From Morinoia aosen (lineage: Eukaryota > Arthropoda > Malacostraca > Amphipoda > Talitridae): a stretch of 64,000 bases of DNA. The DNA lies in contig CM059560.1 in assembly GCA_030386875.1 (NCBI GenBank), positions 25,324,683-25,388,682 of the forward strand, in the 5' to 3' direction. The position numbers and the translations under genes were made by a program. Under the pieces are notes generated by a model. It did no database searches and was not told the DNA's origin. It was given only the letters and a program-made list of their open reading frames with translations. Position 1 is the first letter of the stretch; each line of letters starts with the position of its first letter. Positions 1 to 63,624 of the stretch are shown piece by piece.

Positions 1-122
1 GAAGTTTCCTGCTGTCGAAAGGAGTTGGTGTTGGAAGAACTGAGGTTGCGTCACATCTATTTCACACTGTGCGACCTGCGAGACGTTACCTCCGACCTTC
101 AAAAGTCTTCACCAAAATCCTG
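1..122 (+). CDS. Dynein exon 1 of window: linker end before AAA1
   Basis: Frame 1 is open from base 1 and ends at a donor GTATTG, leaving two bases that join in phase with the next exon at 5575. The segment LRHIYFTLCDLRDV lies where canonical heavy chains have the conserved linker helix before the AAA1 entry. The exon probably begins upstream of the window. A second open frame exists here, but only frame 1 gives the correct phase and a family-like continuation. Confidence 0.7.
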
Positions 123-3100: not shown

Positions 3101-6100
3101 CTTAGGTAACGGGTAGAAAATAGGCAATACTTTATTCAGCTTCTAATGATCAAACCATTTATTGTGCTTTTTAGACTTGAACCTAACTACTTGAACCTCG
3201 TATATCAATATAGGAAATGAATGTGCTTAATTAAGTAATTTATTGTGTTTTTTGTTTATTTCTGTGCGGTATAAAAACCAATTATTATATGGATATGCGA
3301 ATATTAGCTGTAAAAAAGATGTTAAAAATTTATTACAATATTATGATGTTCATATTACTGCATTTTTTATTGATTCTCACAAATTAAATATTTTCCTAGA
3401 AGTCAATAATACATCAAAATAATTATATTGAATCAATAGTCGTATGACCCTTCAATCTCATCCATTGTTAGAGAATAAAGACAATAAATAATGCAAGGAC
3501 ATTTAAAAGCGCAAAACAGGAACTAAGTATTGTATACGTTCTTAATGCTTTTCATTTAATGATGAAATGAAGATGTCAAATGCCGCAGTCACTGCGAGCT
3601 TCAACCTCCCTCTGCAATTGGCAACGCCACACTGGTTGCCTATTGTGATAGCGCACCCACAAGTTGCGTCATTTCAGTTGCTGTAACCGAGGCAAAGTGT
3701 TGCCCCGTGTAATAGGGCCTGAAATTCGGAATGAAGTGAGTGATTGGTTCCCAGTTGTGATAGGCGTGAGACAGGGATGTGTGATGATGCCGTGGTTGTT
3801 CAATTTGTTTATGGATGGTGTAGTGAAAGAAGTGAATGCGAGAGTGTTGGGAAAAGGTGCGCAGTTGGTGGGACAAAATGGTATGAAGTTGGAAGTGTGT
3901 CAGTTGTTTTTTGCAGATGATACAGCGTTTGTGGCGGATTCAGAGGAAAAACTACGGAGACTGGTTGCAGAGTTTGGTAGAGTGTGCGAGAGGCGCAAGT
4001 TGAGAGTGAATGTAAACAAAGGCAAGGTTATAAGATGTTCAAGAGATGGAGTGTTTAGAACATTGGATGTGAGAATGACTGCATGGTGTAGTGTTAAAGG
4101 AGGTAGAGCATTTCAGGTACCTCGGGTCGGACGTGGCTGGGAATGATGGTAAGTAATTAGAAGTGAGACATCGAGTGAGTGAAGGCTGCAAGACGTTGGG
4201 TGCAATGAGGAAAGTTTTTGAATGCAGGAGTATGGGTGTGTGTGCTAAAAGGAGATTTTAAAAGCTTAATCGTGCCCGTTTTGCTGTTTGAAGCAGAGTC
4301 TTGGGGTTTGAGAGCAGCTGAGAGGAAGAAGCGGGATGTGTTTGAGATGAAGGGGTTTAGGAGCATATTTGGAGTAACAAGAAGATATAGGATTACGAAT
4401 GAGTTGGTTAAGGAGCAGACGGCTGATGTCAAAAGGATGAGTAGGCGGGCGGATGAATGAGTGCTTCGATGGTTTGGGCATGTTGAAAGAATGAATGTTG
4501 AGCGACTGGGGAAAAATTATTTATGCGTCGGAGGTTAGTGGTATTAGAGCGCTAGGAAGACGACGGGCAAGTTGGCTAGATGGGGTGAAACATGCATTGC
4601 ATGAGAGGGGTCTGCTGTGGACGTGGCGAAAGACACAACTGCGGACAGAAGTGAGTGGAAGCGGTGCATGAGGATGTAATTATTTGATGCACTCACTGGG
4701 TGATAGGGTATATGTTTGAGTCCTGTCATGTTCGAGGGTAAGCTGCACACAAATGAAGTGGTCGGGGTAAACCAGCAATGGCGGTCGGGCCTGACTGTGA
4801 AAAAGGGTTGTGCTCGGCTGCTATTGATCCGGGCAGTTCTGGTGCGGCCTGTGCTACCTCGCTCGCCTACTAGTCACTAGCTACTAATGATGAATGATTG
4901 TGGCTTGCTGTCAGCTACCCTCCTGTAAGGAGGAAAAGCCAGGTATATGTATGTATTTTCGTTATTATCTTTTTGTCTTTTATTCTCCTTCCATCCTAAC
5001 CTGTTTTCATCTCTAGCGTAACCTGTGTGGGGACACATCTCGTGCATTGTTCCCTACTTTTCATAGTTCATTCAAGTGATCCCTACTCTACGTTCCATTG
5101 ATATCGTTGTTGTGACAAGGGAATTGAACTAACTTAAATAACAATAAAAATAATTCTTCACAAGGATATGATGCTATGTTTTACTTTTAATCCAATCGTC
5201 CATTACTTGTAAGAAAACCAATTGTTTACTCTTCATTTTTAATCATTTGTAGAACTGTTAAAGTTAACAATTTAAGGAGTTTTTTGATGGAAAGAGTTTA
5301 ACGCATCTAGTAAAATTCAATGTTACAAACCCATCGAACGGTATTCACGAGATCGCATACTAAAGCAGCACTCATTTTTGTGCAAAGTAGTTTTTGGATT
5401 TATAAATTATAGTTGATGAAAAAGTTTTCTCATCATAGGCTGCGTGGAAAACCCTATTACCGATGAAAACAAAATTACCAGCAGTATAGTAATAAAAATT
5501 AAATATTACAGCAGATAGTGCACAAATTAGTAATTTCTCAGTTTTCTAAAGTTGATTGAGTTCTCTTTCTGAAGCTTGAGCTGGCAGTGGTTGCGTCATG
5601 GGCACCACAGCGTCGCCGGCACCGGCCGCTCAGCTGGAGTGTTTTGGAACATGGCTGGAATGTCTTTCCAGTACGGCTTAGAATTTTTGGGGATTCCGAG
5701 GTCTGTTAGCCGAAGTCCGTCGACTGACCGAGCTTTATTTAATCTAACCGTCGCTGCACATTCAAACCGCTGTGAGTTTTATTTTTTCATACGTGGTCAG
5801 GGTATGCACATAGTTTTTAACGTGCTTCTTTGGTATGTTTGTTGAGTTTGATGTACTTCATTACGTTTCTTAAAGTGCTCTAAAACACTTTTTAAAGTGC
5901 ACTGATTATTTTTTATGGTAATTTTGAGATTAGTTATTTCAATGCAAAATACGATGAATGAATATCCATTTCAATCTGGACTTCTTTTCTTGGCAAAACT
6001 TCCTTTTAACATATATATAGCATTCCATTTTTATCCCTCCGTGTCGTACCTTGTGCTTGTTTAGCCCTAGCGAGAGTGGCTACACCAACTTTGATGAAAA

Positions 6101-9100
6101 AATGTACCAACATTGGTCGTTGAACATGGCTAGTTTCTAGGCAGAGTTTTTGAAAGTAAATATTTCCAAATTTTTATATATTTTATTAGCGAATTAAAAG
6201 TTCGTAAGCGATAATTGCGTTCGGAATTGATGATGATGATGATGATGATTGTGCAAATTCAAATTACCGCTTTATCATTCAAAATAATAGGTGCATTTTT
6301 GTACATTGCAACAGAAAGGATACTGTGAAGTGTTATTAAATTTAATCTGTCTTTTCAAAATTGCATGCATTTTTTTGTTTAATTTCCATGTTAATTTTGT
6401 AATATATTTTTCATAAAATTTTTCTTATAAATTTTTCTGATAAATTTTTATAGGCGGCGTGACCGTAGGTGGGATCGGCGCAGGAAAATCGGAAGCTGTG
6501 AAGACACTGGCCGGCTACTGCGGCAGACATGTTGTGGAACTGCCCGGGTTTTCTTGTGGGAAGGTGATTTATTGAGTGCAATAACTCCAACCATAATAAT
6601 ACACAATTTCAAGCTCAAAAGGAACTTGGCGTTAGCCAAAATCAAAGCATTTATATTGAACCTCAACTGAAATGCGTATTGTGCTTTATTTTCATATCTT
6701 TGGGAAAATTGGGTTTTAGTTGGTGAATGTTTATCTCAATTGAAGAATTTGAGGTGTCAGAGCAATATTATGGTCTGGAACTTTTAATTTTTCCACGCCC
6801 CAATTGCAGCAACACCTTTGCTGCGTCTCCGTTCGCGGCTCTCCGTGCGCAAATATTGAAATTAAAATTAAAGAAACTGGTAAATAACTATCTTGTTGCC
6901 AAACTATTTTCGAAAGAAATGGATTTGCAGTTTAACCCTTGAACACAAACCCTCTGCCAGGCCTAATCGAAATAATTTAAAATAACTTCACACCTAAGTC
7001 GAGATTTTGAGCATTTTTAATTTTTTAGTCTTAAGATACGTCGTGTGAGGAAAAATAAGAGCCAGGCAGTGTTTCTCTTTATCGGTTTCTACTTCAATGC
7101 GTCTGTTCTACAGCTATTTTTCTATTTGTCGAAAATAATGGTTATGGTTACTTAGGTTTGTGATGATGTCACACCGACCATATGATTTGCGTTCTAAGAC
7201 TGCTTTCATGTTGCTGCCAAGGTAATAAAATGAATTCTTTTTCTTTATCTGTTGGACTTACGTCGTCAACGACAGAGACTCGCTTAATTCGACTTTCAGG
7301 TCAGCCACAGGCTGAACTTTTTTCCTTCATCCCGTCCAGAGTCTGGACCACGCAGTGACGGGGTGTGCGGGAGGAGGGCTGTGGCTGCTCGTCACAGACG
7401 CCGCCTTGTTGGGCTACGATGCCCTCAGCAGACTTTCACTCCTGTCTAGGGAAGTGGCAAGGGTCAGGCAGAGCGGCTTCAAAAGGTACCTTCAATTGCT
7501 TTTCAAAGTGCAAATTTTTCCCAGTGTAGTTATTTTATTGATGACGTGTTTGGTTTTCACATAGTTTGAAGTCCTAATTGCGGAATCCGTCAGTAAGAGT
7601 AATCAGCTAACAAATTGGATTTTACCTAATATTGGATTAAAATTTTTGTCTTTTGCAGTTGCATTATCGACCACACCGAGGTGAAGCTTCATGACCACTT
7701 TGCAATCTTCATGACCATGACAACTCCAATATTACCCTGTGTAGTACCAGATGTTGAGGACTATTGTACTTCACCGAAAAAGCTAAAGCAGAGCAAAAAT
7801 TTGGCTTGGGAGTTCGGTTCTATCATCGGACCTACACTGAGGATTGTACCGGTCGTGCTACCCTCTTCTGGTATGTGCGACACGTCTTTGACATCCTTGG
7901 TCACTACCATATTTATAATATACCAATCAACAATACTTAAGGATTGGTATAAAATTTTAAAGTCAGCCCAAGTTTGGGTGTTGCAATATGCAACACAATA
8001 TTCTCACTGCATTGCTCGGTTGATCAAGGTACGTTTTCATCTCTTAAGTATATTTTGATTGTGTTTGAGGTGGGAATCATTCGAGGCCCCTAAGGCTCGA
8101 TGGGCCGTTTTTTTATAAAGGATCCTTACGTGATGGGCTACTGTGCCCTAAAACTTTATGGGGCTACGGGCATTAGATCCCCCCTCCCAAAGGGGGGGGC
8201 CCCCAGTGAAGGGACCAAAAATCATGAGTATTTGACCCCATATAATAAGAAAACAAAACAAAGAATGAGAATTCTAAAACTATCAGTTTGTTTGCAATGT
8301 TACGAGGATTTCAAAACTGTCTTTGAATTTATTTTTAGCATAAAACTCAATGATTTCTATTCTTTTAAAATATCGATACAAATGAACTAAATAACTAAAA
8401 TTTCGAATTTTTTCAAAAAACTAAGGTCTAAATCAAAAAATAAATGAAACAAAATGTGTTTCTTTTTAAAAATTACATACAGAGGTCAAATTTCAGAAGA
8501 ATCAGACCAAAAAATAACAATTCACCATTCATCAAGAAACGAATAATTTTTTCATCTATACTTTATTTTTATTTTTTGACTTGTAGTTTACATTTCACAG
8601 TGTAAATATGAAATTATGCATGGAGATTATCAAAAAAACATGAAAACAGCATTCGAGTTTAAAAATTGTTCATTATATTTGCTCCAGCAAAGAATTTGCT
8701 CTAGCATAAAAACTCAATGACTTCTATTCTTTTGAAATCTATACTATAATAAGAGCCGCGTCCGTCGGTCGGTCAGTCTGTCCAAAGCCAGCCGAAAGTG
8801 TGTGATGAGCGTATCTGTGATACAAGTTCCAGCCCAATATATTTTGACGGGCCGTGTGCTCGCGGCCTCATCAACTCGCGAGACTCGAGAGATTGTATTT
8901 TTTGATTATTTCCTAAGACCTTTCTCTCGTTTCGCCCTCTTTTTATTTCAAATAAAGGGGGGTGGACTAGTTTCCATAAAAATGAACTAAAAAACCAGTT
9001 CTTCCGATTTTTTTCAAAAACTAAGGCATAAATCGAAAAAGTTTCTTGAGTAAAATATGTTTTATTTTCAAACATACATACACTGGCCAAATTTCAGACG

Positions 9101-12100: not shown

Positions 12101-15100
12101 TAACAAAAACATGAAAAATGACCATCGGAGAGAAAAGGGGCCTCGGAGGGCCCCCTTAATCTATCTTTAAGGTACGTTTCCGTTTTTCGCATCATCATTT
12201 CGACTTGTTCCTACGCAGTATAAGATGTTTTCGTAATCGCCAAACCTGATATTCGTCCATTTGATAGAAATGGTGTGTGATATCACAGAGGTGCTGCTGC
12301 AGGCAGCGCTGGCTAGCCGAGCCCTGCTGGTGTCCGCTTCCACGCTGGCTGACGTGACCCTCATGGTGACCACCTGCACCAAACGCGGCCTTTGCGCACC
12401 CAGGTATGCAGTACAGCCGTGTACTTGGCATCACTTAGTTCTATAGATTCTTTACTCTTTAATGGTGGATTCTTTTGTGTGCGGTGCAATTTGTACAATT
12501 TTCAGTGGAAAAGTTCTATAAAAAAGGGCAAAAAAGAAGTTCAACCGACATTCAAGCTTTACTCCGGAAAGAGATTAGGAACGAACGCACGTCGTAAACA
12601 GCCGTAACGGACACAGGAACAGGGAACAGGGAACAGGACGAGCTGTTGGAACCTTTAGCAGTTCAATACCATGTCCGATCTCCCGCCTGGCATCGTCCAT
12701 CCTGCAAAGGCATGAAAACGCGAACTGTCAACGTAATCTCCAGAGAACACCCGAAGTACAATTGAAATAGTTTCAACCCCAAAGTTTATAGTTTACTAGT
12801 TTTTAAACGCTTACCACCAAAGTTTATAGTAGCAAGTCGAACGACAAAGTTCTAAGTTTTCAAGTTTATATAAGTCGAACGACAAAGTTTAAGTTAATAT
12901 AAATCAAACGACAAAGTTTAAGTTTATAAGTCGAACGACAAAGTCTAAGTTTATAAGTCGAACGACAGAGTTTAAGTTTATAAGTCGAACGACAGAGTTT
13001 AAGGTTATAAGTCGAACGACAGAGTTTAAGTTTATGGTTGATAGTTTATCAAGCGGATGTATAATGAATCGTGGGAAGCAGTCACCAACAAAATCACACC
13101 GTCCCCGAACAGCCCATCTGCAACGATGCACTAGACCAACCTCCGAGCGACGTCTGGATGTTGCTGTCCGCTCCGTGATCTCGGCTGCCGGTCCGTCCGC
13201 CTCTCTAGCGCAGATTTTTATTTATACATTGTCATGAAAGATGAATTTACGGTCCTGAAGTTTGTAGCGGAGTTTACACCTTGGTCGATTGGACTCCACC
13301 CGGCACGCGTAGACACAGTTGAGATCCAGCCGCAGTTCCAGAGGAAGGGGTAATCTTTTCCGATCAAAATATACCTGGCACATTCGGCTCCAACTGAGAT
13401 CCAGTGGCTCAGCGAAGTATCGACCATTTAATCGGAAGTAGTGTTGATTCCGGGAAAAGCAGATGAGATGGATTCTTTGCGGGATCTGATGAAGAACTGC
13501 GGGAATAGGAGGAGCTTCCACACAAGTTAGTAGTGGAAAGGGAAAGTTGGTTCTAGTACGCTACAACTGTGATAATCAGAGCAGCGGTTTTACTTTAATA
13601 TTTTCTCCCAAATTGGTTTATTTTAATTCCTTTCAATTCGGTTAATTTGATGAATTAAATTTTACAAATTAATGTAGCTGTCGCTTGAATCCTATTTCCT
13701 TTAAAGTTACCTTAATTCTAGTACTTAGAGCTATAATGCAGGTATTCTGCACACAATTTCATTCTATTACCTGTTTAATCCATCAATGAAATTTTGTCGC
13801 ATCTCAATAAGTTAGACAGAAGAGTTCATTCTATGTCTAAGCTTAAAAGTATAACGTGGGTTTTCTCATGATGAATGTTTTCTGTACAGAATAATAGGTT
13901 GTATTGGAGAAGCTGCAGCGTCTATGAGACGTTCCTTGCTGCAGCAGCATTCACCGGTGAGTGAAGAACGAATATGGCCTAGTAAAATCTCGAATACTGA
14001 ATCTAAATTTCAATAGAACTCATTCAACGCATCTTATAAAATTTAAAATTACCATAGAATCGATCTTGAACAGAAAAAAATGTAGCAAGCCTCCAATGAT
14101 GTTGAAAGTTGTGAGGAAGAATATGAATATCCAGAGTGTTTTCTCTGCGAAAGTGGATGCTTGGAAAAAATTTGTGGATTGAGCGATTCTGATTTAAGCC
14201 TTGCTTCGGTAATCAATGTTGCTCAAGAAAATTATCTCAGAGCCAGTGAGTGAGACGTAAAGGAAAGAAATCTTTCCGTTTACAGAAGCGTTTTGTGCTT
14301 CATGTCTCATATTTCAACGTTTCGTGCCTCATGTCTCATGTTTCAACCTTTCGTGTCTCATGTCTCATATTTCAACCTTTCGTGTCTCATGTCTCATATT
14401 TCAACCTTTCGTGTCTCATGTCTCATATTTCAACCTTTCGTGTCTCATGTCTCATATTTCAACCTTTCGTGTCGCATGTCTCATATTTCAACCTTTCGTG
14501 TCTCATGTCTTATATATCAATCTTTCGTGTCTCATGTCTCATATTTCAATCTTTCGTGTTTCATGTCTCATATTTCAATCTTTCGTGTCTCATGTCTCAA
14601 ATTTCAATCTTTTGTGTCTCATGTCTCATATTTCAAACTTTCGTGTCTCACGTCTCATATTTCAACCTTTCGTGTCTCATGTCTCATATTTCAATCTTTC
14701 GTGTCTCATGTCTCAAATTTCAACCTTTCGTGTCTCATGTCTCATATTTCAATCTTTCGTGTCTCATGTCTCAAATTTCAATCTTTCGTGTCTCATGTCT
14801 CATATTTCAATCTTTCGTGTTTCATGTCTCATATATCAATCTTTCGTGTCTCATGTCTCAAATTTCAATCTTTCGTGTCTCATGTCTCATATTTCAAACT
14901 TTCGTGTCTCATGTCTCATATTTCAACCTTTCGTGTCTCATGTCTCATATTTCAATCTTTCGTGTCTCATGTCTCAAATTTCAATCTTTCGTGTCTCATG
15001 TCTCATATTTCAACCTTTCGTGTCTCATGTCTCATATTTCAACCTTTCGTGTCTCATGTCTCATATATCAACCTTTCGTGTCTCATGTCTCATATTTCAA

Positions 15101-18100: not shown

Positions 18101-21100
18101 CGGCTCTTTCTTACTCATTCTTCTCAAGCCCTTGCACGCATCCATATTCATCCAGTCTGAACAGGTCTCACACTGAATCAACTCCTTCATCCCATCTATA
18201 CCTCCAACACTAAAACTACTTCCCTCATTATATGCCATCCTCAACCACAAACTTCTATCTCAGCACAGACTTACAGGCAAATACAAGACTACCAGTCAAA
18301 ACACCCTCGTCAAAAGTTGCAAGTCACGATATAAACGCTGAGTTTCAGGCAGCACAAGCACTACTCTCACTAGCACTCCATACGGTGTCACACACTATAC
18401 TCACGTGAAATACAAACTATACCAGTTTTCAGCAACTTCACTTTAATCCATCACAGTTTTAGTCAGAGGTTCAGTAGCACACAAGCACAAACCAAGAAGT
18501 CACAAGTCACTATCACCTTATGATACTCGTATACGCCAGGAAAGAGGCTTCTGTTAGGTTACATCAGCTATAAATCGATCTTAGGAACTTCTATCTTTCA
18601 TGCCCACTTGTATCTTCCAGTTTTCATTCCTCCTTTACTATCTCTTCTTAGCATTTTCTTGCACTTCCTTCCTAAATTGCCGTTTTTATGCGCAGGGTGT
18701 TACTTTGTGCGAACACACCTTGTGCTTAAATTCCCTTTTTCTTAAATCAAAATGGTCTCATTTCACTCGTATATTTTGATCGTGTCCAGTACTTTCGTTC
18801 ATTTTCTTTAATTCAAGAAACCTGATGGTTAGGTCAAAAATACGCACTTTTACTTTATGAAAGTCTACTGTGTATTTCAGAAATAAAAATTATCTTCCCG
18901 GTCCTCTTTTTCCTCAGGAAGTTATATCGGACGACACTATTGTGAGAGATGCAGCCATGATTATTTGTTCAAATGAAGGAAACCATATCGCGAGAACAGC
19001 ACCAGTTTTCGAAACTTATGAAAAAAACAAGAGCCTGGACAACACCGTCCTTCCAGACTCGCCTTCTCCCCACTGCCTTCTACCCGAAATCCTCATCAAT
19101 GACGTCGCATCCGCTGGTCTAGTGGACAGCACATCTGAAATTGCACAGACGGCAAAAACGTTTGACAATTCTGGGAAAGATGGCTTGCAAAACTCTAATT
19201 TTGAATCCTCTAAAGGGTCTTTAGCTGAAACCTCTGTCATTTTCAAAACTTTTCAGAAAAAATTACTGAGAGAAGCGCTAGAGAAGATATTGACTGAATT
19301 CTTTCTAGAAAGTTCTTCAAGTTATGGTGAGTTCAAATTGTTGAAATAATTTCATTCTGTATTTCTCTCGCATGGTATGACAATAGTATCTAGGGATAAT
19401 GCTTTATGGTTAAATAAATCAGATCAAATCAACGCTTCTAAAAGTATTTTAAACTCAAAGACCTTTGTACATTGTTTCGTGTCGGATCTAAGTTTCTATT
19501 GAAGGTCGTACAATTGGAATAATCTTAGCTACAACCCTTATGATTAATTAACTTGCTCTCTTTAAAGCGTAATTTGTGTTGAGAACCAAATTTTCATTGG
19601 CAGGAACCTTGGTTGATGCAGCGATAAGTTTGCACTCCCACTTATCTCTGTACGACAGCTGCGCAATGGTTCACAGTCGGTCTATCTCTATTACCATGGT
19701 GAGTGTGACATTTTTGACAGGAACGAACAAAAATGAAAAATACTCTCCTCCTAAACAGATCAAAGGTAACACAATGCTTAATATACTATTGTTTAATAAT
19801 AGATACCAACAAACAGTAAAACTAAGGCGGGTAAAAACATCTTTCACAAAATCTCACGATGTATTTTAAAAATAGAGCTTTCGAGCATATCCATACTCAT
19901 ACTAGAGCTCGAAAGCTCTATTTTTAAAATACATCGTGAGATTTTGTGAAAGATGTTTTTACCCGCCTTAGTTTTACTATTTATATGTAAATTACGCTTT
20001 CCCAAGAATAAACCAACAAACAGTTCACATGAATTTTCGATATCACTTTCTTTCGATATTTGATAAACTTTCGATACATGAAATCACCGAACAATTCGCA
20101 TACATCAACATAAACATCAACAACAAGATTATTAGGTTATATGTTAGTTTAAGCCTCCCTAATCGCTAAAAAAAAGCGTTCCGAAGAGAGGAAGGAGGAA
20201 GGCGCCATTTAGTATGGAGATAAGGGAACGCGGAAGCTATGCAGAAGGGGCATAGAAACATCAAGTTGAGGAAGAAGTTTGTGACTAAAGATGAAAGTTG
20301 AAGAAGAAAGTAGTAGGTGCTGAAAAATAGGATAGCAGTGGACCGAAAAAAGGTGGTCCTTAACTCAACAAAAACATTTTATTTTAACAAAATGAAGGCC
20401 TACCTAACTCTCTGCTCGGGCTCCCACACATTTTCCCCCTGGAAGTGCTAACACCCATAGATACCATGGTTGTATCCCCCTGAGGGGACATCTAGAACAA
20501 ACAATTCGCAACAAACATGCAGGGAGTAACGGCTTTTTAAATGATTAGTTCGTCATCCATTTTCTTATTCTAGTACGATGCAAGTTTTTATCACACATGA
20601 ATTAGTTCACTATCATCTGCGCTTTTTGTCTAACACATTATAACGATTGATTTTATTCAATTTTATGTGCAGTTAAGTAACTGCCTCCGTTGATTCTACC
20701 CAAAATGAGATATTTTTTCATCTTTTCTCTAATTATTGGGCGCATTTTTCGCTCCTCAGTAATATTATTTCTGCTCACTTGAGACCGAAAATCTCATCAG
20801 TTATAGTGACAGCTATTTTTGTGTTGCAAGTGTATCTCCTAGCCTTTGAAGTACACGTGCGGAAAGATACCGGTCTTCTTAAATTAACAATAAAATGTTC
20901 TTCGTAAGAATGCATAATTAGAACAATGCTCAACCGTAGCTGTCCTTCAATAAAATAATTGATCTGCTATGCTATTTTGGTAGTGTTACTAATTATTTTC
21001 CCAGATAAAGATTGTTTGTATAGTTTAATTAAGATGATATATTTAAAGCTCAGTTACCGGAAATGAATGGTACCGTGCTGGGTACTCTGCTTTAAAATGA

Positions 21101-22549
21101 TTTTACTTCAGTTGACGGTACTCACTATTTGTCTTTCCATTCATTAATTGTTTAAGTCTCTCAAATGTATCTTGATTAGCGATCCTTGGAAATGTAAGAT
21201 TCTAAGTTTGTTTATTTTGCTAATATTTTGCAGATTTTGTGCGGTGCGTTAGAGGCACTACGAAGAGGTCCAGGCTCTGGTCTAAAAAACGAAGAAATTT
21301 CTCTTATAGAAATCTACTGTTCTGCTTGTGAAGACGAGAGTGAAGTAACGCGAAGGATCGAACGAGAGGTGCATTGTTTTTTAATTATTTATACGACGCA
21401 CTAGATGAAATTTACTTAATTCTTCAATTACCATTGTTTCTCAAATAGACCACCATCCAACAAATATTTATGCCAATGTTATCAAAGCCGCTTAATTCTT
21501 GCCAAATTGAGGTAAATTATTTCTAACTTCCCTCCAAGTAGGTGCGGGTTTCCATAAATAAAGCTTTCCTTACCGACAAACTGCCACATCGCAGAGGCAT
21601 GAATCTTACGTTCCCAAGTTACATTTCCACCCATGGCTTCCTTCAATCACCGCAGCTGGAGTGCCGGGAAGGCGAAGCGGTGGAGACGTGGCTGCTGCTG
21701 CGACTGCCCTGGACACCATGCTCTCTCCTCCGCTCCGCTCTACGCATCAGTGACTACGTTCGTCGTGCTGGTGTCGCACCGAACAAGATGAAGCTGGTCT
21801 TAGAGGCTGCTCCTGGAGATACACTGTGTGGCCACTTAACTAGCAGGTGAAGCTGTAGCATACCTTTGCTCGAGCTCGTGCACTCGGGGAGGGTGAGGTC
21901 TAAAGCTGAAGGTTAAGTAGGTTTCTCTTTGGTTGAGATAAAATAGGTTTCTTGTTTTGTTACAGACCATTTTTTTGAGGGGGGTTACTGCTGCCCTGTT
22001 TTCCAGTATATATTACTTTCTTCAACTTTCTTTCATGTTTTATGATCTTCCTTCTTATTTTAATATTTCTTTGCGCGGAAGATTTTCTGTAGGAACACAC
22101 TTTGTAGACAGACACCCCGTTCTGTTAACTCCACGTCAAATTAGGCTTTTCTCCTTTCTTTCGAGCGCTGTTGTTGCGAATAGCGAGGCTTAAACTAGCT
22201 TATTTAATCTAATTATTTAATCTCGAGCTAATGCTTTTGCAATTCATTCGTTTTACTTTCCCTGTTGTCAGTTATTTTGTTTTCCTATGTTAGGAATCGT
22301 TCCATTGACAATCGGTCATAATTTCAAATTTTTACCAGTTCTATATTGTTTCATTCAAAATTTTATTTGAATGGATGGTTTCAAATAGAGGCAGGGAAGT
22401 CTAGGACACATTTGGTCATTTCATCTTGCTTCCCATAATAGTTCCGTTACGTTTTTATTATTTCATTTGTAATATTTCACTTAAGATACACAAACACCAT
22501 AACGAAGTTAGCTCTTCAGGTAGTGACTTCTCCAAATCCGTAGATGCCT

Positions 22550-22588
<39 letters not shown>

Positions 22589-40500: not shown

Positions 40501-43500
40501 CAAGGAATTAAAATTCGTTCGTAAGTAGGATATGTAAGGACCTTCAGTACTGTAGTTCACTTGCATTGGCAGGAGCCTAAATTTAACTCAAGAACAGCTT
40601 GTTTATAGGAAACTGTAACGTAAATAATACAGTTGATAATAGCAACACTCACGAATGTGGATAAAATATAATATACCTGACATGTATTAGATACATACTG
40701 GAAGAAGCATGGTATCGGTGCTTTAAAAGTCTTCTTCATAGCCTTAAAAAGCTTTATTGGATATCTAACGGCTAACAGCTCTAATGTGTTTTATTTTTTG
40801 TTTAATTTGTACCCTGATGTTTCTCCAAAGTTCACTTCCGAACGGCTGTTGCTTCCTCATTCTGATGTGTATGAAAAGCAGGTGCCAGTGCTTATCTAAT
40901 AAAGGTGAGGTATAGACACTGATCTGAGCAAAAACTTTCGAATGCCAAAAAAGTAAATTAAGCTCCGTATCTGGTAGGGAATCAGGGAAGCGGATAAACG
41001 TATTAACTTATAAGTATACATAACGTAATTGCTAAAGGTGGGCGTGTATTTCCCATTTTGATCAATAATTCTCTTAAGAATGAATTATTTTCAGACTTGA
41101 TTGGTCCTCAATGAAGACACTGCTCGGAGATGCATCCATGATAAAGCGGCTACTCGATATTGACAAGAATAACATCAACGATGCGCTGCTTCGCAAGCTT
41201 AAAAAATATTTAGAAATGCCCAAGTTTACGCCAGATGAGGTAAGTCTGTAGGGGTATGTATGAAGAAGCAATGTTTAACACTCCATAGTAATTTTTCGAT
41301 GCCTAAAAATATATTGTATCACATTATTTAATTACATCAACACCGCTGTTGGAAGATTTTAACGCGGATTGTTTTACGTTTGAAGCTCACATCGGCGAAC
41401 GACTTGCAGAGCGAGCGTTCCACACCTATGTTCTGCCGCTAATTTTTTAAAGCAAGCCTTTACCAAATGCTTATAGCAATATTTTCAGCCTGCTAAATTC
41501 ATTCTCAATTCATGTTTAGTAGCTTGCAAGAATGATAGAGTATATGGCAGTTACGAATCATCTCACATTTTAATTTCATTATTTTCATTACTTATGTCGT
41601 GACCCTCTTTATTTTATCTCGCTGAGGTCACGGTCTTCATTTTTCTCTGCCGTCATTCTTTGTTGCGATGCATGATATTTTCCATGTGATATTATTAGTC
41701 GTGACATTAAGATTATTCGTTACAATTCATATATTTTCTACTTGGTAATATCAAGGTAGCTGCCACCAATACATGGTTTCTGTATAAATATTTAATTCAA
41801 TCTTCGGTAAGCGTTACGAGCGGCTTAAGGCCATAAATTAACCGTGCATTCTAGCCGTGTTTCCTGGCTTCAAACATTATTACTTTCCTTCTGAATCATC
41901 ATGTCCTCTCCTCCTATTTATCTGAAGGTTATTAAAGACACAGGAACATCAAAGAAATTCGATATTGAACAAAGGAAATTATCAAGACATTAATCATCGA
42001 AAGTACGCAAGCTAATTGAACGCACGCGATCTGCGCATTCACATCCTAATATACTTAGAAGCGTGAGAGGGAACTGGGATTTGACATGAAATCAGAGGGA
42101 AACTTATCTTGAGATTTGGAGATCGGTCTCGCAGTCTGAATGTCGCCTGGCTGGCGCGCTGGAGCAAGGTCGCCATGTTTGGTTGAGGGCAGAGAGACCA
42201 GGTTGATGGCTGGGGCTATGCCGACAGTTAGCAGTCTAGGTTGACAATCTCTAATTTACGTTATTGGCACTGCAGTTGAGTATTTTTGAAGTTAATCACT
42301 TTCGAGCGAATGAGGGCACAGATATTCTAGGATTGCTTTGAGTAGTGAATTTAAGAGGCAAGCCTCGGCCCAACTGGACCAAGGTAGAGGAACAAACTCG
42401 TATGCGGCTGCTTGTGATCGTGTTCTCGCCTCAACTGCCGCTCTCCCTCCGGCAACCGCGTCTGGCGTCCCCTTGAGGTGCCAAGTTTGAATAACGACCT
42501 AACAAGGTTACCAATAAGAACGTGATACATCCCTACTATCAAATAGAAAACATACATCATTAACCTTACCCTCATTACTATATAAAAATCCCCACAAAAC
42601 AATGTTAAACATATTAATTAAAGCAAATGAAGACATCCGTTGAGGTTCTTAGCATCTTCCGTTAGCGTCTTCGTTCATTACGCGTATCGACGACGTCTGG
42701 GCGTTGTTCTTGACGAGTCGACTGTTCTAGGACGTAACGTTGCAATGTTTTCTCGCAGAAATCAGGCTTAATATTTGGTCTTTTGAATCATTTATGAATA
42801 AGTCGTTGGCCGGACGATTATTCAGATCCTTAGCGATATTCCTTACACAGTTATGCGGAGAAGCATGACACTTATGTAAACGAACAATTTCGAAAAAAAA
42901 CAATATTGCTTACTACAAAGTAACTGGACCTAATAAACTGTTTAATACTATAATGCTTATTTTTAAAACCTCTCAAACAATTACCAAAATGAAATTTGAA
43001 TGAAAGGAAAACTTACTAATATTTAACAGCTTGAGAATAAATATTTAGGCGTTGAAATTCTCACGAAATAGCTTTCGTAAAATAGCAATGGCTTCCTTTT
43101 ACCTTCTCTAGTTTATTTTTATCAAAAGTACTTTTGCCCCTCTAGATGGGAAAAGTGTCGCGGCCTTGCCGGGTGCTCTGCGTGTGGCTGTTCGCTTTGG
43201 ACCGCTACTCACACGCCCTTGTCTTGCTCCAGCCCAAGAAACTGAGGTAATGCTGATGCTTATGTAAACCTGTGCTCTAGATCAATCGTGTCTCTGCTGT
43301 GGAGTGTTTCGCTCCAATTTACTTGCAGGACATGAAGCGTAGTATGCGGTCTACTGAAAAAAGATTAACGTAGTTTACATTGACGTTCCCCCGCAGTTTT
43401 TCTGCGGGGAAATATTCTAACAGCAACGACAAATCTGGAAAGAAATATGGTTCATTGAGGATTGAAGTCATGATTTCTGCTCCTTTTATTATGTATTTCA

Positions 43501-46500
43501 AAGAGACTTATATATACTTGAATAGTAACTTTTATTTCAGCCGACATTGGTCTTGTGTTCGCTATAAGCCCTAAAACTCAATTTATGTGAATAAGGGGAA
43601 CATTTACGACCATATTTGTTAGAGTTCTCAAGTATTTGCCAAATGCCATTTTAGTTATGAGTCCCTCCAGCAAGTCATTAGTTGCAAATGAAGATGAAAC
43701 AGGTTTTTTATTCATATCATGATTTTATTTAACCCTTATCTTCTCCGTTGCTCAACTCGATAGCAAGAGAACTACTGTGAGCTACCAATACTGATAAAAG
43801 GACCTGAATTGTGAACTGGCTGCCCAAGCTGAGAGTTAGGTAGGCTTTCTTTTTGTTCAAATAAAATGTCTTTTTGTCATGCTTAGGACCACCTTTTTCG
43901 GTTCACTGCTGGCCTGTCTTTCAGTTTACCTAATACTTTTTTCTTTGACTTTTATCTTGTTTTATAAATTTCTTTCTCGACTTACTGTTTTTATGCAACT
44001 TCTGCAATGGTTCCGAGTCCAATACTAAATTATCTCCATACTAAATGATGCTTTCTTCCTTCCTCTCGTGGTAACTTTTTTTTGCGATTAGGGGAGCCCA
44101 ACTAATATCTAATCTAATCTAATCTGCAGACTGGCTGAGGCGGAGCGAGATCTCAGCGCACTTCTGCTGCAGCAGCGCCAGCTTCAACAACAGCTGGGTG
44201 AGGCTCCCGGTGTCATCCGTCAACTCCGTCAGCTTTATTCACCGCAATAGATTTCAGAATCATTTGACCTTTATATCCGAATATTTTGGTAAGATAGTTT
44301 TAAGAATTTGTTTATTTTTACCTGAAGCCCTTGAGGCTTCACTTAAAATAATATTAGTTTTTAAGCAATAATGTAACTTTCTCATGACTTCCACACCTTA
44401 ACTCCCGATACTTTTGAAAATATCGTTGTAGGTTGACTAGGTCTCACTTTGATCAATCTTCTAGCTTTATAATAATATCAAAGCTTAATAAAATTTGAAG
44501 CTATTAGGATGGTTGTGCATACATTTAGTATAGACAATCGAAAGAGCTTCAATCACAGTTCTTAAGAACAATTACAGTTCATTTGACAAGTCCAATTTTG
44601 TTTTCACATTCGGTTCCATTAAGCCCGTATAACGTGACTACACCCTGTTCCATGAACCAGGAGAAGGGGAGCGTCAGCTGGGAGAGCTGCAGTCGCACTA
44701 TGAAGAGAGCGTCAGCACCCGGCAGCAGCTGGAGGCAGGGATCAGGTCGGCGACGGCGCGGCTGCAGCGCTGCACGCGCCTCACCACCGTCCTGGCCGAC
44801 GAGGAGGCGAGGTGGCGTCGGGAGCTGGCCGTGAGTCTAGCCTGCCTCCGCTCTCGACGTCCTATTTGTCGTGGTGGTTCATGTAAGGTAGTTGAGCGAA
44901 ATGGGAGTGCCTTTCAGTATGGTTTTTCTGATGAAATTCGCGAATTAAATAGAGGTACGAAGAGAAATGGAAACAAGTCTAATTTAGTGACTGTTGGGAT
45001 GAGTCAGTGGTTCAAGAGAATGTAGTTTGGCCACTTATATTAATATATTTGCATTATATATAATAGCATTCTGAGATATTTGAGAAAGCTGAAATTTTCC
45101 ACCTGACGTTCTGGTACTCTTCCATTTTTCACATTCTTATATAAAAATCGAACTTCGCCAGTATTCCCACTCATACGACTGTTCTTACATAATGAATTGT
45201 AATCTATTTTGGTTAATTAAAATGCATGAGCGTTATAGTGATAAGTTGACATGAGTGATAGTGTACCACACATTGTGGATTGATCGTCCGAGAAATTGAA
45301 TTGGGATGGAATGAAAGTTAATCCCATGGAGGTGCGGCAAGGGTGGAGGCAAGAGCACAATCGTGGGTCCGTTTAGTTTGAAACTCCACCGAGTTCATAG
45401 CGATGTTGGCTGTAATTGAGTGGAAGTGAATGAACCATAAATGTGAAAATTAGCAAGTAAGGTTAAGATAAACTAGTGTAGGGCAGGTACGTTATAGAAT
45501 TAGAGGAGTTGTTTGGTAGAGAATTTATGATTGTTGTAAATTACGGCACTATTTGTAGCAATGTTGAAGTCCTACTACGATGGGAGTTTGATATGCTATT
45601 TCAATTTCTCTGAGTCATAAAGTGTCTTTCTGTATCTACACACTTTTCCTTGTGCATATTATCAGGAATACTGATTTAAACACATAAGTGGTGTTTAAAC
45701 CATGATGTTTCAGTGTACTTTGATCGTCTTTATGAAATGCTTTTCGTTGCGTTATGATACGTTGAAGATCAGAAGAAGAAGAAGAAAACGGACCAATGAC
45801 ATGCGTTTTGCCTCGTGGGGTCTTTTCCATTGCCAGTTTCGCCTTTTTTTGAATAACATCATTCCTTTTTCGCCCATGTTTGCCATAGTCATTTGATCCC
45901 GTTGATATTGTGGCGCCATTGATTTCGTTTTTTCATTTAATTTTTTCAACATTCCTGAATGAGCTGAATCGTATTATTTCTCAATTCAACAGGCCCTTAT
46001 ACAATGACATATTAAAATGCGGTGACTTCAATTATGATCTACTGAAACATGAAAGCTATGAACCAATCTCTAATTTCCTAACTACCTTTCAGTCTCAATC
46101 CTTCCTTCCGATCATTACAAAGCCTACACGAATAACCTCAGAGTGTGCTACGCTGCTTGACAATATTTTTACGACAGACCCAAGTGATTTTCTTGCTGGA
46201 ATAATTACTTCTGACTCATCAGATCACTTCCCAGTTTTTCTTATTAAGAAAAATGTCTATATTGCTTGCACCAAGGCACGGGCTGAAGCTTACTCATATC
46301 GTAAAATAAACGAATCAAATCTTGAAGAAATGCGCACCGTTCTATAAGAATCAATGCATACATTGCACATCTTTCAACAAAAAAATAATGCTACGAGCAT
46401 TGATGAAGCAGTAGTAAAGTTAACTGAAACTATAATGACCGCATACAATCAGTGTTGCCCAATTGTAACTCGTACAGTTACCCCTAAAAATAAACAAAAG

Positions 46501-58500: not shown

Positions 58501-61500
58501 TCTTGTTACACGAGCGGGAAGACCTCCACAAGCAACGGGAGCAGCTGAGGGCGTCCATTCAAAAGGACGAGGAGACGATCTCCTCCCTAGACCGAACTCT
58601 GCTCAGCAACACATGTCCTCTATGGGAATTAGCGCTCCCAGGGGAAAAATGTGAGGGCCCGAGCTGAGAGTTAGGTAGGCTTTCTTTTCGTTGAAATAAA
58701 ATGTTTTTTGTTATGTTAAGGACCACCTTTTTCGGTTCACTACTGTCCTGTTTTTCAGCATCTCTGACTTTCTTCTTCAACTTTTATCTTATTTCATGAA
58801 TTTCTTTCTCATCTTACTGTTTCTATGCCCCTTCAGCATAGATTCCTCATTTTCTTATCTCCATACTAAATGGTGCCTTCCTCCTTCCTCTCTTCGATAC
58901 GCTCTATTTTGTAGCGGTTAGGGAGGCCTAAACTAACTTATAATCTTAATCTTAATCTTCTTATTTGGTATTATTGATTGTATGAACATTTCATTTTTTA
59001 AAAGCTATTACGGTTGTAAGTAGGTCATTAGTTTTGTAACGCTTCAATTTCCACGTTTGAAGGAAGAAGAGTTCATTTGTACATATTTGTAGAAGGCTTC
59101 ATTTACAAAATTTTCAATAAAGTGAGATGTGTACGTTAGAACTTATGTGAGCCTTTTTGAAGAAGTATTTTCATTGTTACCTATCACTTGAAATCTCACT
59201 TTTCCGGCCCCATGAAGAATTCATTATGTATGGTAAGAATATTTAGCTATAATGTTCTTAGTGTTTAGCTTTAAAAATAAAATGAAGCATGAAGCGTTTC
59301 AAGAATTATTAAGAGTATGTAAATTATAATTCAAACCATAGTACAATTTACTAAGACAAACCGGGGTGCCCAAGTAAACAAATGAATGAACTTTCTAACA
59401 TTTTGGTAATGGGAGTTAAATATAAAACGTAATTGCCAGAGCCTGGACACCGAAGCGGAGACGATGATCGGAGATTGTGTCCTCGGTGCCCTGGCGTCGG
59501 CGTACTTCGCTCATTTGAAGCCCTCCGAAATTGCAGCGCAACTCACAGACTGCTCCAAAATATTAGAAGAGGAAACAATAACAGTAAACAAGGACTTGAG
59601 GTACAAATGTGGAAAAAAATTACCCGTTCATTTTTTTCGAATTCTAACTCGTTGAATTTTGTTTCTCGAATGGTGAAGGGGAGTTGTGACGTCAGGACTG
59701 GAATGGCCTGCTGTCCTACTAAATAGATATGGTGTGGGTAAGAGTTATATTGGGAAGTAAAACCAGACGCCTGAGTCATTAGAATTTTTCAAAATTTCAA
59801 ACAAGCCTCTTTCAACAAAAGTTTATGATAACGTACGGCAGAGCAGCCTTTACGGCAGGTCCGAAGTTTCAAGCTATTCATCATGCCTTCTCTGTTTTTA
59901 CCTTGGAACAGAAAGAAAATGTTTTCGCTCGCTTTATTTCATTCTGACATGTAACAACTTTGTTGTTTCGAGAGGCCAGGAAGTGTCATTGACATTCTGT
60001 GGCATGCTCAACAATTAATTAATAATTCTCTAACGAGTAATTTATTTTTTCTTCGCTACTCGGTGAATAAAACACGATATTAACGTAATGATATTCGCCT
60101 AATACGATATTAGCAAATTTTGAGAGTCTGTGTCCCAGTTCAGGCTCGTTTAACAGGCAAGTCTACTTTCTTACCGAGGGAAGGTTTGAGGTTTACTTAA
60201 AATTTCCGAACCGCCTTCATAAGAATTCTTATTCTCTCATTAAAGAAGAACTGTGTAGATCCAAGAAAATTGAATGGCATGTACAATGAATAAGAAATTG
60301 TTATTTTTTAATTTGGTGTTGCCTAAACTTGCTTCGTTTTCTTGCATGAAAAATATTTATTTTGTCTTGTACTTCGGGATAAATGAAATGCACTTTGAAC
60401 TTCAGAAGGATCGATCCACAGAAGAACCTCGAGTTGTGATCTTGAGTAATTTTTTCCTTGAACGGGCTGTGTCACCCTTATATCTCAATTTTCAAATTTG
60501 AACCTAAAATACCATAGTGACGGGTCGAGAAATGTGCGCTTCTATCTGTAACTAAGAAAACGTATATAGCTAAATTATCTTTTGTATAATTACAAACATC
60601 GTTTGGTACTGATGTGGGGCTCAAAATAGTAGGGTACATTTCTCCATAAGAATATAACGTAATTATTCTCATAATTCTTTCTTAAAAGATAAAACAACGG
60701 GTTGACTAAACACAATTGTATTCTCAAAGCTACTTAAGGAGAGACAACTATTGTAATTATGGACAATCAGCGTTCCAACGAGGGAGATGTGAGGTCTTGA
60801 GCTGAAAGTTAGGGAGGTATTCTTTTCATTTCTGAGTCTGTTTTTTGCTTTGTTACTTACCATCTTTTCGGTCCAGTGATGTCCGCTTTTTATAGTACCA
60901 ATTGCATTCTTCTCCAACGCTTATCTCGTTTCAAAAACTTTTTCAATCTTATTGTTTCTCAGCGCAGGGCGTGGTGACACACCTGGTACTTTGATTCCCC
61001 ATTCCTTTGATTTCATTCTGAATAATTGTTTTTTCCTTCCTCTTACGCCTTTCTCAAATCCACCTTTTGTTGTGATTTTGGAGGCTTAAACTAACTTATA
61101 ATCTAACATTGTATTTTCAAAGGTGCAACAACTGAGATCTGTTTCTATGAAGGCAATCAAATTACGTACTATATCTCATCTGAATCTCGATCGAATTATA
61201 CCGAGTATCTAACTTAGATCACACTATCCCATTTCTTATAAATTGGTCACATCTTTTAAAACTTGAAATTATCCTCGCCATTCTTATCGATGACCAATTG
61301 TACGGATCCCCACGCACAACCTAATTTCTAAAGTTTTTTTCAGCGAACTGAGCAGGTCAGTGAGCAGCCGAGCCGAGCAAGAGGCCTGGGCCCGAGCAGG
61401 GCTGGACGCGCACCGCTCCTGCCGCTGTCAGGCTGCCGTGCTGCTCGCCTCTAGCCGGCCTCTCCTCGTCGCCGACCCTGACCAGCTGGTCTGCACTCCC

Positions 61501-63624: not shown

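Follow-up and report, generated by a model that had tools for sequence, protein, structure and literature searches.

Degenerate ATPase sites and a better conserved stalk suggest a non-moving microtubule binder in a probably DNAH6-type dynein family of crustaceans

The window, the whole 64,000-nucleotide stretch of Morinoia aosen DNA that was analysed, carries dynein exons on its forward strand from position 1 to 63624 (Table 1). Our gene model comprises 32 complete exons between 5575 and 63624 with 2,229 codons and no stop, and spans the dynein motor, with the linker end as its first part and AAA5 as its last; the model is cut at both window ends, and the tail, most of the linker, AAA6 and the C-terminus fall outside. 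All 31 junctions have AG/GT borders, and none shows a phase mismatch. In 2,229 random codons one would expect about 102 stops at the composition of the coding sequence and 138 at that of the window, and the other two frames of the model contain 102 and 124. Because open frames and borders, and in part phase, guided the choice of exons, these stop and phase counts are not independent tests. Independent of the exon choice, the stretches homologous to decapod proteins in tblastn contain neither a stop nor a frameshift between the chosen borders. Five decapod homologues used as tblastn queries gave forward-strand matches spanning 5582-63633, mostly in gene order. The exceptions were a match at 58500, where part of the last exon occurs as an extra copy, and some weak ones, for example residues 1564-1633 of the Scylla homologue P0059 at 25571 (E 0.5), and no minus-strand match at E<0.01 was found with these queries in the window.

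Table 1. Exons of the dynein heavy chain gene, with the domain or motif that each encodes and the evidence for its placement.
Feature	Position	Strand	Evidence
Partial exon, linker end, cut by window start	1..122	+	tblastn to P0002 573-597, E 0.045 (6-kb search), weak homology
Donor of partial exon 1..122	GT after 122, phase 2	+	fits exon 1
Exon 1: linker end / AAA1 start (FQYGLEFLG..TDRA)	5575..5771	+	tblastn, model; AAA_6 match E 3.6e-13 on AAA1 segment
Exon 2: AAA1 Walker A GGIGAGKS, intact	6454..6563	+	tblastn E 0.055, model, motif
Exon 3: AAA1 Walker B position WLLVTDAAL, lost	7340..7485	+	tblastn E 0.004, model, motif
Exon 4: AAA1 sensor region TMTTP, Asn lost	7659..7870	+	tblastn E 0.003, model, motif
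Exon 5: AAA1 small domain	12268..12403	+	phase and splice sites; no tblastn match
Exon 6: AAA1 end	13890..13956	+	phase and splice sites; no tblastn match
Exon 7: AAA1-AAA2 linker with low-complexity insert	18918..19326	+	model; no tblastn match
Exon 8: AAA2 P-loop position HSRSISIT, no P-loop	19604..19698	+	placed by alignment; no tblastn match
Exon 9: AAA2 (weak donor)	21234..21368	+	model
Exon 10: AAA2 Walker B position WLLLRLP, Asp lost	21542..21846	+	model, motif
Exon 11: AAA2 end	23312..23480	+	model
Exon 12: AAA2-AAA3 linker, charged low-complexity insert	23938..24374	+	model
Exon 13: AAA3 start (weak acceptor)	24611..24756	+	model
Exon 14: AAA3 P-loop position HGHGMST (Lys lost), Walker B position LLLEDVH	25518..26109	+	tblastn E down to 3e-5, motif
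Exon 15: AAA3 end	26457..26659	+	tblastn E 0.001-0.011
Exon 16: AAA3 lid / linker with insert (weak acceptor)	27245..27858	+	tblastn E down to 7e-7
Exon 17: AAA4 Walker A position GSPGSGRR, Arg for Lys	28374..28543	+	model, motif
Exon 18: AAA4 Walker B position VVVRPR, Asp lost	33880..34061	+	model, motif
Exon 19: AAA4	34839..35077	+	tblastn E 0.06-0.4, model
Exon 20: AAA4 end	36613..36789	+	tblastn E 0.03, model
Exon 21: AAA4 to stalk base (acceptor uncertain)	37283..37414	+	tblastn E 0.2-0.6, model
Exon 22: stalk CC1	38258..38434	+	tblastn E down to 1e-9
Exon 23: CC1 end, MTBD start including helix H1 with fixed Pro (residue 1741)	39763..39959	+	tblastn, alignment
Exon 24: MTBD core	41095..41239	+	tblastn E about 1e-15
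Exon 25: MTBD end / H6 with fixed Pro (residue 1804)	43146..43246	+	tblastn, alignment
Exon 26: CC2	44130..44197	+	tblastn, model
Exon 27: CC2 base (RLQRCTRLTTVLADE)	44661..44830	+	tblastn E about 1e-16
Exon 28: AAA5	59440..59600	+	tblastn E 0.02-0.3, model
Exon 29: AAA5 (weak donor)	61344..61488	+	tblastn E down to 3e-4, model
Exon 30: AAA5	62140..62340	+	model
Exon 31: AAA5 with insert	62921..63192	+	tblastn E down to 0.001
Exon 32: AAA5 coiled-coil extension, last in window	63447..63624	+	tblastn 42-51% identity to 5 decapods; AAA_9 match

The dynein order AAA1-4, CC1-MTBD-CC2, AAA5 is present both in the order of the tblastn matches and in the exon model. Three Pfam families matched the window gene above their gathering cut-offs: AAA_6 (AAA1, E 3.6e-13), MT (stalk, E 1.4e-26) and AAA_9 (AAA5, E 2.4e-14); AAA_8 (AAA4) was not detected in it. 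A Pfam scan of two 15-kb frames with stops read as X returned no dynein and was too insensitive for the purpose, the exons being found by eye and by tblastn. Splice borders are weak at the donors of exons 9 and 29 and the acceptors of exons 13, 16 and 21. Exons 5-13, 17, 18 and 30, which have no tblastn match above 26 bits, rest on phase, splice sites and alignment. An exon of an early model, 35761-35926, was dropped, as joining its neighbours preserves phase and residue spacing.

Satellites and fragments of LINE-type reverse transcriptases occur in the introns. A satellite of 168 copies of a 22-bp unit (28864-32559, 94% matches) lies in the intron that separates the AAA4 exons 17 and 18, and an array of 30 copies of 29 bp occupies 14300-15175. 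The large intron between CC2 and AAA5 holds a 1,133-residue LINE-type retrotransposon frame with endonuclease, reverse transcriptase and RNase H (50696-54094); further reverse transcriptase fragments are found at 3652-4143 and 46727-47620, and one at 55146-56069 on the minus strand falls below the Pfam cut-off. Around the intron before exon 7, the pyrimidine-rich stretch 16001-20000 has a strong negative GC skew (-0.36). Part of exon 32 (63451-63560) recurs as an exact 110-bp copy on the same strand 4,951 bp upstream (58500-58609), at an 834-bp tandem duplication in which 57785-58084 and 58619-58918 are identical over 300 bp; the partial copy is either a recent duplication or an assembly error.

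Decapod proteins ranked top in each of three protein searches, which together yielded a family of seven poorly annotated relatives: P0001 (Palaemon carinicauda), P0002 (Petrolisthes cinctipes), P0003 (Penaeus vannamei), P0008 (Macrobrachium rosenbergii), P0059 (Scylla paramamosain), P0104 (Penaeus chinensis) and P0105 (Petrolisthes manimaculis). Their database names are 'DNAH6-like', 'uncharacterized' or 'hypothetical'. The searches scored only candidates sharing most words, and absence of the family elsewhere cannot be read from them. In the first search, three decapods led, followed by four DNAH6 proteins (sponge, snail and two aquatic fungi; E 3e-52 to 4e-40) and, in eighth place behind these, the damaged Macrobrachium protein; DNHD1 matched far more weakly (E 5e-9 and 2.5e-7). 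In the second, the decapods were followed by a green alga protein labelled DNAH7 and then a DNAH6-like one. When the window stalk was compared with PDB sequences, the best three matches were DNAH6 (168-174 bits), and the next named class was DNAH2 at 116 bits. A literature search of titles and the starts of abstracts, with most subscription journals outside its range, found no paper on the decapod family; PMC8697902 concerns, in the part available, the cytoplasmic dynein of a crab, and in the accessible part of a 2009 survey of arthropod motor proteins (PMC2674883) dynein heavy chains were not yet analysed or classified.

From 116 proteins we calculated two trees, one of AAA4-AAA5 (41 rows) and one of the stalk (40 rows); P0008 and P0105 were omitted from both, P0104 from the stalk tree for a missing piece, and both are without any insect Dhc16F sequence. 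The window gene and the decapods joined at 100% support inside the DNAH6 group in both trees, with the window gene branching outside the decapods (100; 94/82). In the AAA4-AAA5 tree, SH-aLRT support was 91 for joining the snail and sponge DNAH6 and 97 for that group with the chytrid DNAH6; in the stalk tree the family fell with the snail and sponge DNAH6 at 88/78, within a group at 82/96. The sequence-only reading had asked for a phylogeny that includes DNHD1. Kinship with DNHD1 as the nearest relative is not supported: both best trees, in which DNHD1 was included, and the PDB sequence search favour DNAH6. A joint clade of the family and DNHD1 occurs in neither best tree and is not formally rejected by AU tests (p 0.0586, and 0.347 for the stalk alone); for the family outside DNAH6 and DNAH14 the AU tests gave p 0.187 and 0.106. 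The family is thus best placed with DNAH6, with which it groups in both best trees, though the AU tests exclude no alternative.

We compared the motifs of the AAA sites across 34 rows. The comparison bore out the original observation that AAA1, AAA3 and AAA4 of the window gene are eroded and that AAA2 has no P-loop, with the Walker A motif of AAA1 intact including its Lys (GGIGAGKS). At AAA1, the Walker B position reads WLLVTDAAL against the canonical WCCFDEFNR (VTD for FDE), and sensor I reads TMTTP against TMNP, with loss of the Asn. AAA2 (HSRSISIT) has no P-loop, AAA3 (HGHGMST) lacks the P-loop Lys, and AAA4 (GSPGSGRR) has Arg in place of the Lys found in DNAH6 rows. Since several canonical axonemal rows of the DNAH2, DNAH3 and DNAH7 types also carry this Arg, it is by itself weak evidence of erosion. 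The decapod relatives are less eroded, so that erosion is graded and has gone furthest in the window gene. Petrolisthes retains both Walker A (GAVGEGKT) and Walker B (FDE) at AAA1, and the AAA1 P-loop is kept in both family members that cover it. The AAA2 Lys is kept in three of three covering decapod rows (GSSGAGKS in Petrolisthes; APSGSGKS in Penaeus and APPATGKT in Scylla, with Ala for the first Gly), as is the AAA4 Lys in five of five. Lost throughout the family rows covering the respective site are the sensor-I Asn (3/3, window included), the AAA2 Walker B Asp (4/4) and the AAA3 P-loop Lys (4/4). Penaeus vannamei keeps the AAA4 Walker B Asp, which the window gene, Palaemon, Petrolisthes and Scylla have lost; the Macrobrachium protein, whose annotation is damaged there, was not counted. 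The sequence-only reading had proposed a non-motor that perhaps binds nucleotide at AAA1. The kept P-loop and the lost sensor-I Asn fit this proposal in the family members that cover these sites, and the Walker B motif is degenerate in the window gene and still FDE in Petrolisthes. From these motifs, nucleotide binding at AAA1 of the window gene is possible and hydrolysis unlikely, and the decapod members, in which more sites survive, may have kept nucleotide binding or even turnover.

The stalk presents a different picture from the ring. Identity between the window gene and the decapods was 32% in the AAA1 core and 18-26% in the rest of AAA1, 16-24% in AAA2, 27-28% in AAA3, 20-23% in AAA4 and 20-22% in AAA5 (too low, since MAFFT misaligns the last exon), and 16-32% for the ring overall; it was 34-42% in CC1, 57-62% in the MTBD and 64-65% in CC2. 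These ranges exclude P0104, in which part of the stalk is missing (CC2 40%). Because of the misalignment, conservation of the last exon was taken from tblastn: this coiled-coil extension of AAA5, which we take to be in the buttress position, is 42-51% identical against about 21% for the rest of AAA5. For four decapods, identity was 61-63% over MTBD and CC2 and 21-23% over AAA4 (Fisher p 6e-17 to 4e-20), in agreement with the early remark that the stalk exons follow the family closely; the exons then numbered 25-27 correspond to exons 22-27 of our model. Canonical DNAH6 of snail and chytrid runs the opposite way, with 55% over MTBD and CC2 and 65% over AAA4 (p 0.03; by domain, AAA1 80%, AAA4 64%, MTBD 60% and CC2 46%). 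For DNHD1, shark compared with alligator gave 37% in AAA1, 35% in AAA4, 38% in the MTBD and 15% in CC2; shark with skate gave 56% in AAA4, 69% in the MTBD and 47% in CC2; and shark with sole gave 26%, 41% and 21%, respectively. The DNHD1 MTBD is thus somewhat better kept than AAA4 in all three pairs, and the coiled coil is not (CC2 15-47%).

To compare branch lengths, we simplified the AAA4-AAA5 tree by hand to 19 rows and kept this topology fixed. On the family branches examined, the ring evolved faster than the stalk, with AAA4:MTBD ratios of 4.7 for the window gene, 3.0 for the family stem, 13.1 for the decapod stem and 3.0 for the decapod tips, against 0.6-1.1 in five of five canonical DNAH6 tips. 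Values of at least 2 were also found outside the family, which is therefore not alone in its raised ratio: Schistocerca DNAH3 had 2.0, Harmonia DNAH3 4.1, the short tip of a Scylla DNAH7-like chain 4.1 and the stem of the crab DNAH7-like chains 3.5. Since the split from the snail and sponge DNAH6, the family has evolved 3.2-4.6 times faster than canonical lineages in the MTBD and 3.4-4.2 times in the whole stalk, and 7.4-9.5 times faster in AAA4 and 10.3-12.8 times in AAA5; ring branches, at 2.8-4.4 changes per site, approach saturation, and alignment and branch lengths in the window gene's very divergent ring are unsure. Because the stalk itself is faster than in canonical DNAH6, its constraint is relatively rather than absolutely strong. 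The stalk matches DNAH6 exactly in length: it has 286 residues in the window gene, in four of five family rows examined (the fifth, P0104, is incomplete) and in five of five DNAH6-clade rows. The corresponding length is 275-315 in DNHD1 and 300-315 in eight of nine DNAH1/3/7-type rows; a 286-residue stalk without flap is not exclusive to DNAH6, as DNAH2-type and DNAH14 rows also have 286. The earlier suggestion of selection on the stalk and not on the ATPase therefore holds in part: constraint on the stalk is far stronger, the frame is open and seven decapod relatives share this pattern, which argues against a pseudogene or an accident particular to the window, but the stalk is not simply canonical, being 3-5 times faster than in DNAH6 and only 34-42% identical in CC1.

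Within the stalk, the family is invariant at 107 of 286 columns; 19 count as family-specific, with a residue found in fewer than 6% of the other rows. Two of these 19 residues are prolines. At residue 1741, which lies in the helix that follows the KPP turn, six of six family rows and none of 35 others have Pro, and at residue 1804, where SKAC has become SKPC, five of five family rows have Pro and 35 of 35 others Ala; P0105, outside this alignment, carries both. Structure models were built on P0105 rather than on the window gene. A first model from 9 sequences had a mean pLDDT of 45.8, and a second from 25 sequences reached 62, with AAA4 and the stalk mostly at 70-92. The second model places the proline at 1741 within a helix and that at 1804 immediately ahead of the long H6/CC2 helix; pLDDT in this region is 63-84. 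Judged by their titles, all 50 Foldseek matches listed for the P0105 model come from entries of dyneins or doublet microtubules; their TM-scores, normalised to the query, were 0.25-0.37, values from which we make no claim about the fold beyond its class. The available part of PMC6629372 gives H1, H3 and H6 as microtubule contacts and a shift of H1 as the main change upon binding. The prolines could weaken microtubule binding; that they lock the MTBD in one binding state is speculation.

Of the parts beyond the window, the C-terminal domain is mostly absent in five of five family members examined, with 90-93 of the last 281 reference residues aligned, and P0002, the one long model, has no N-terminal tail; since P0002 is the only one of the seven relatives to reach the linker, the absence of the tail rests on one gene model. 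If the tail, like most of the C-terminal domain, is gone, the family may no longer dock as an inner arm.

These observations suggest a motor turned into a non-moving microtubule binder, in which the power-generating sites appear to be lost and the microtubule-gripping stalk is much better conserved. The reading we favour, at slightly better than even odds (roughly 55%), is that a DNAH6-derived inner-arm dynein was kept as a non-hydrolysing microtubule binder after flagellar motility was lost. To judge from its sequence, the window gene product would be unable to run a motor cycle driven by AAA1 and would still fold its stalk and bind microtubules, probably as a static or slowly switched tether or cross-linker. 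Once beating was lost, selection on the ring ATPase would have lapsed, with the stalk, the MTBD and, less strongly, the AAA5 coiled-coil extension retained, and binding by the stalk would still be needed for tethering or cross-linking in sensory cilia or non-flagellate sperm. Decapod sperm are non-flagellate, and our literature search found nothing on such sperm together with dynein. Ciliated mechanosensory neurons, which express and need the insect orthologue Dhc16F, would be the likely site; the microtubules of non-flagellate sperm are the other candidate. Dhc16F, the insect DNAH6, is described in the available part of PMC6367277 as expressed in chordotonal neurons and testis, with knockdown impairing fertility and climbing. 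The parts available of two further papers state that Vericrustacea except Notostraca and Thecostraca are without motile cilia or flagella (PMC4415241) and that motility genes are lost in part in Daphnia (PMC10425847). Any switching that remains would operate through nucleotide binding at AAA1 without hydrolysis, for which the kept P-loop leaves room. A more detailed version, that the inner-arm dynein became a cross-linker independent of ATP hydrolysis, its ring only a scaffold, its stalk selected, its H1/H6 prolines locking one affinity state and its nucleotide cycle uncoupled, is tentative and less likely than not.

If the protein were instead a nucleotide-gated microtubule binder, AAA1 would bind ATP without turnover, and a signal through ring, buttress and stalk would set affinity. 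The AAA1 P-loop kept in both members covering it, the exact stalk length, the strongly conserved CC2 base and the better conserved AAA5 coiled-coil extension are as this idea predicts, but the sensor-I Asn is gone, Walker B is gone in the window gene and AAA2-AAA4 are eroded; the proline in H1 may hinder the very shift that sets affinity, and the structural models do not reach AAA1. We consider such a gate rather unlikely. Unlikely, too, is a slowly decaying relic, an axonemal dynein that was no longer needed after motility loss and is becoming a pseudogene with residual stalk conservation. Ring identity of 16-32%, with more sites lost in the window gene than in the decapods, looks like progressive decay, the rate of the stalk is also 3-5 times that of canonical DNAH6, and DNHD1 is described as possibly turning into a pseudogene in the accessible part of PMC8754002. 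Decay should, however, hit stalk and ring alike, yet on the family branches the rate of AAA4 is 3-13 times that of the MTBD; the exact stalk length was kept while new residues became fixed in the stalk, and the 32-exon open frame, whose homologous stretches have no stop or frameshift although the ring at about 20% identity marks an old gene, is hard to square with decay. That the window gene is an invertebrate DNHD1 orthologue is highly improbable: DNHD1 likewise shows erosion of AAA1 and AAA4, its MTBD is more conserved than its AAA4 and the AU tests leave a joint clade standing, but the search matches and best trees separate the two, DNHD1 stalk length and CC2 drift, three of three DNHD1 rows covering the site keep the AAA3 P-loop Lys, and the family's MTBD prolines are absent from DNHD1.

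Dynein stalk and ring are normally parts of one allosteric machine. A retained DNAH6-derived microtubule binder, as a natural family that largely keeps the stalk and releases the ring, would show the use of a dynein without a power stroke, and the decapods with their graded intermediates would provide a test system for uncoupling microtubule binding from ATP. It also bears on why animals without beating cilia retain axonemal dynein genes.

Among known dyneins, DNAH6/Dhc16F (the single-headed inner-arm dynein g) matches the family best in stalk and trees, and shares the 286-residue stalk without a flap insert and the domain order. The family differs from it in its eroded AAA sites, low-complexity inserts and two MTBD prolines and in the absence of most of the C-terminal domain and, in P0002, of the tail. 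DNHD1, the vertebrate 'orphan' heavy chain, implicated in sperm flagellum morphology in the available part of PMC9916431, resembles the family in its degenerate AAA1 and AAA4, but forms a separate clade in both best trees, with poorly kept coiled coils and a drifting stalk length. Two crab DNAH7-like chains (P0018 of Eriocheir, P0025 of Scylla) share with the family a stem on which the ring is faster than the MTBD (ratio 3.5) and a lost AAA3 P-loop (GEGESGRK), but their AAA1 Walker A, Walker B and TMNP are canonical and they group with DNAH3/7 types; loss of the AAA3 P-loop thus co-occurs with a canonical AAA1 in both rows. These chains are a second decapod axonemal dynein whose ring is faster than its stalk. 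Uncharacterised molluscan chains (P0098 of Biomphalaria, P0101 of Ostrea, P0103 of Crassostrea) likewise combine an eroded AAA1 with a kept stalk, which is 72-77% identical between P0098 and P0101 against 52-60% for AAA1, but they form a separate deep lineage of 5.7-6.0 thousand residues with AAA2-AAA4 64-69% identical and, in both rows examined, P-loops retained at AAA2 and AAA3. In P0098 the eroded AAA1 reads GPREGNKF and CFNDVSH.
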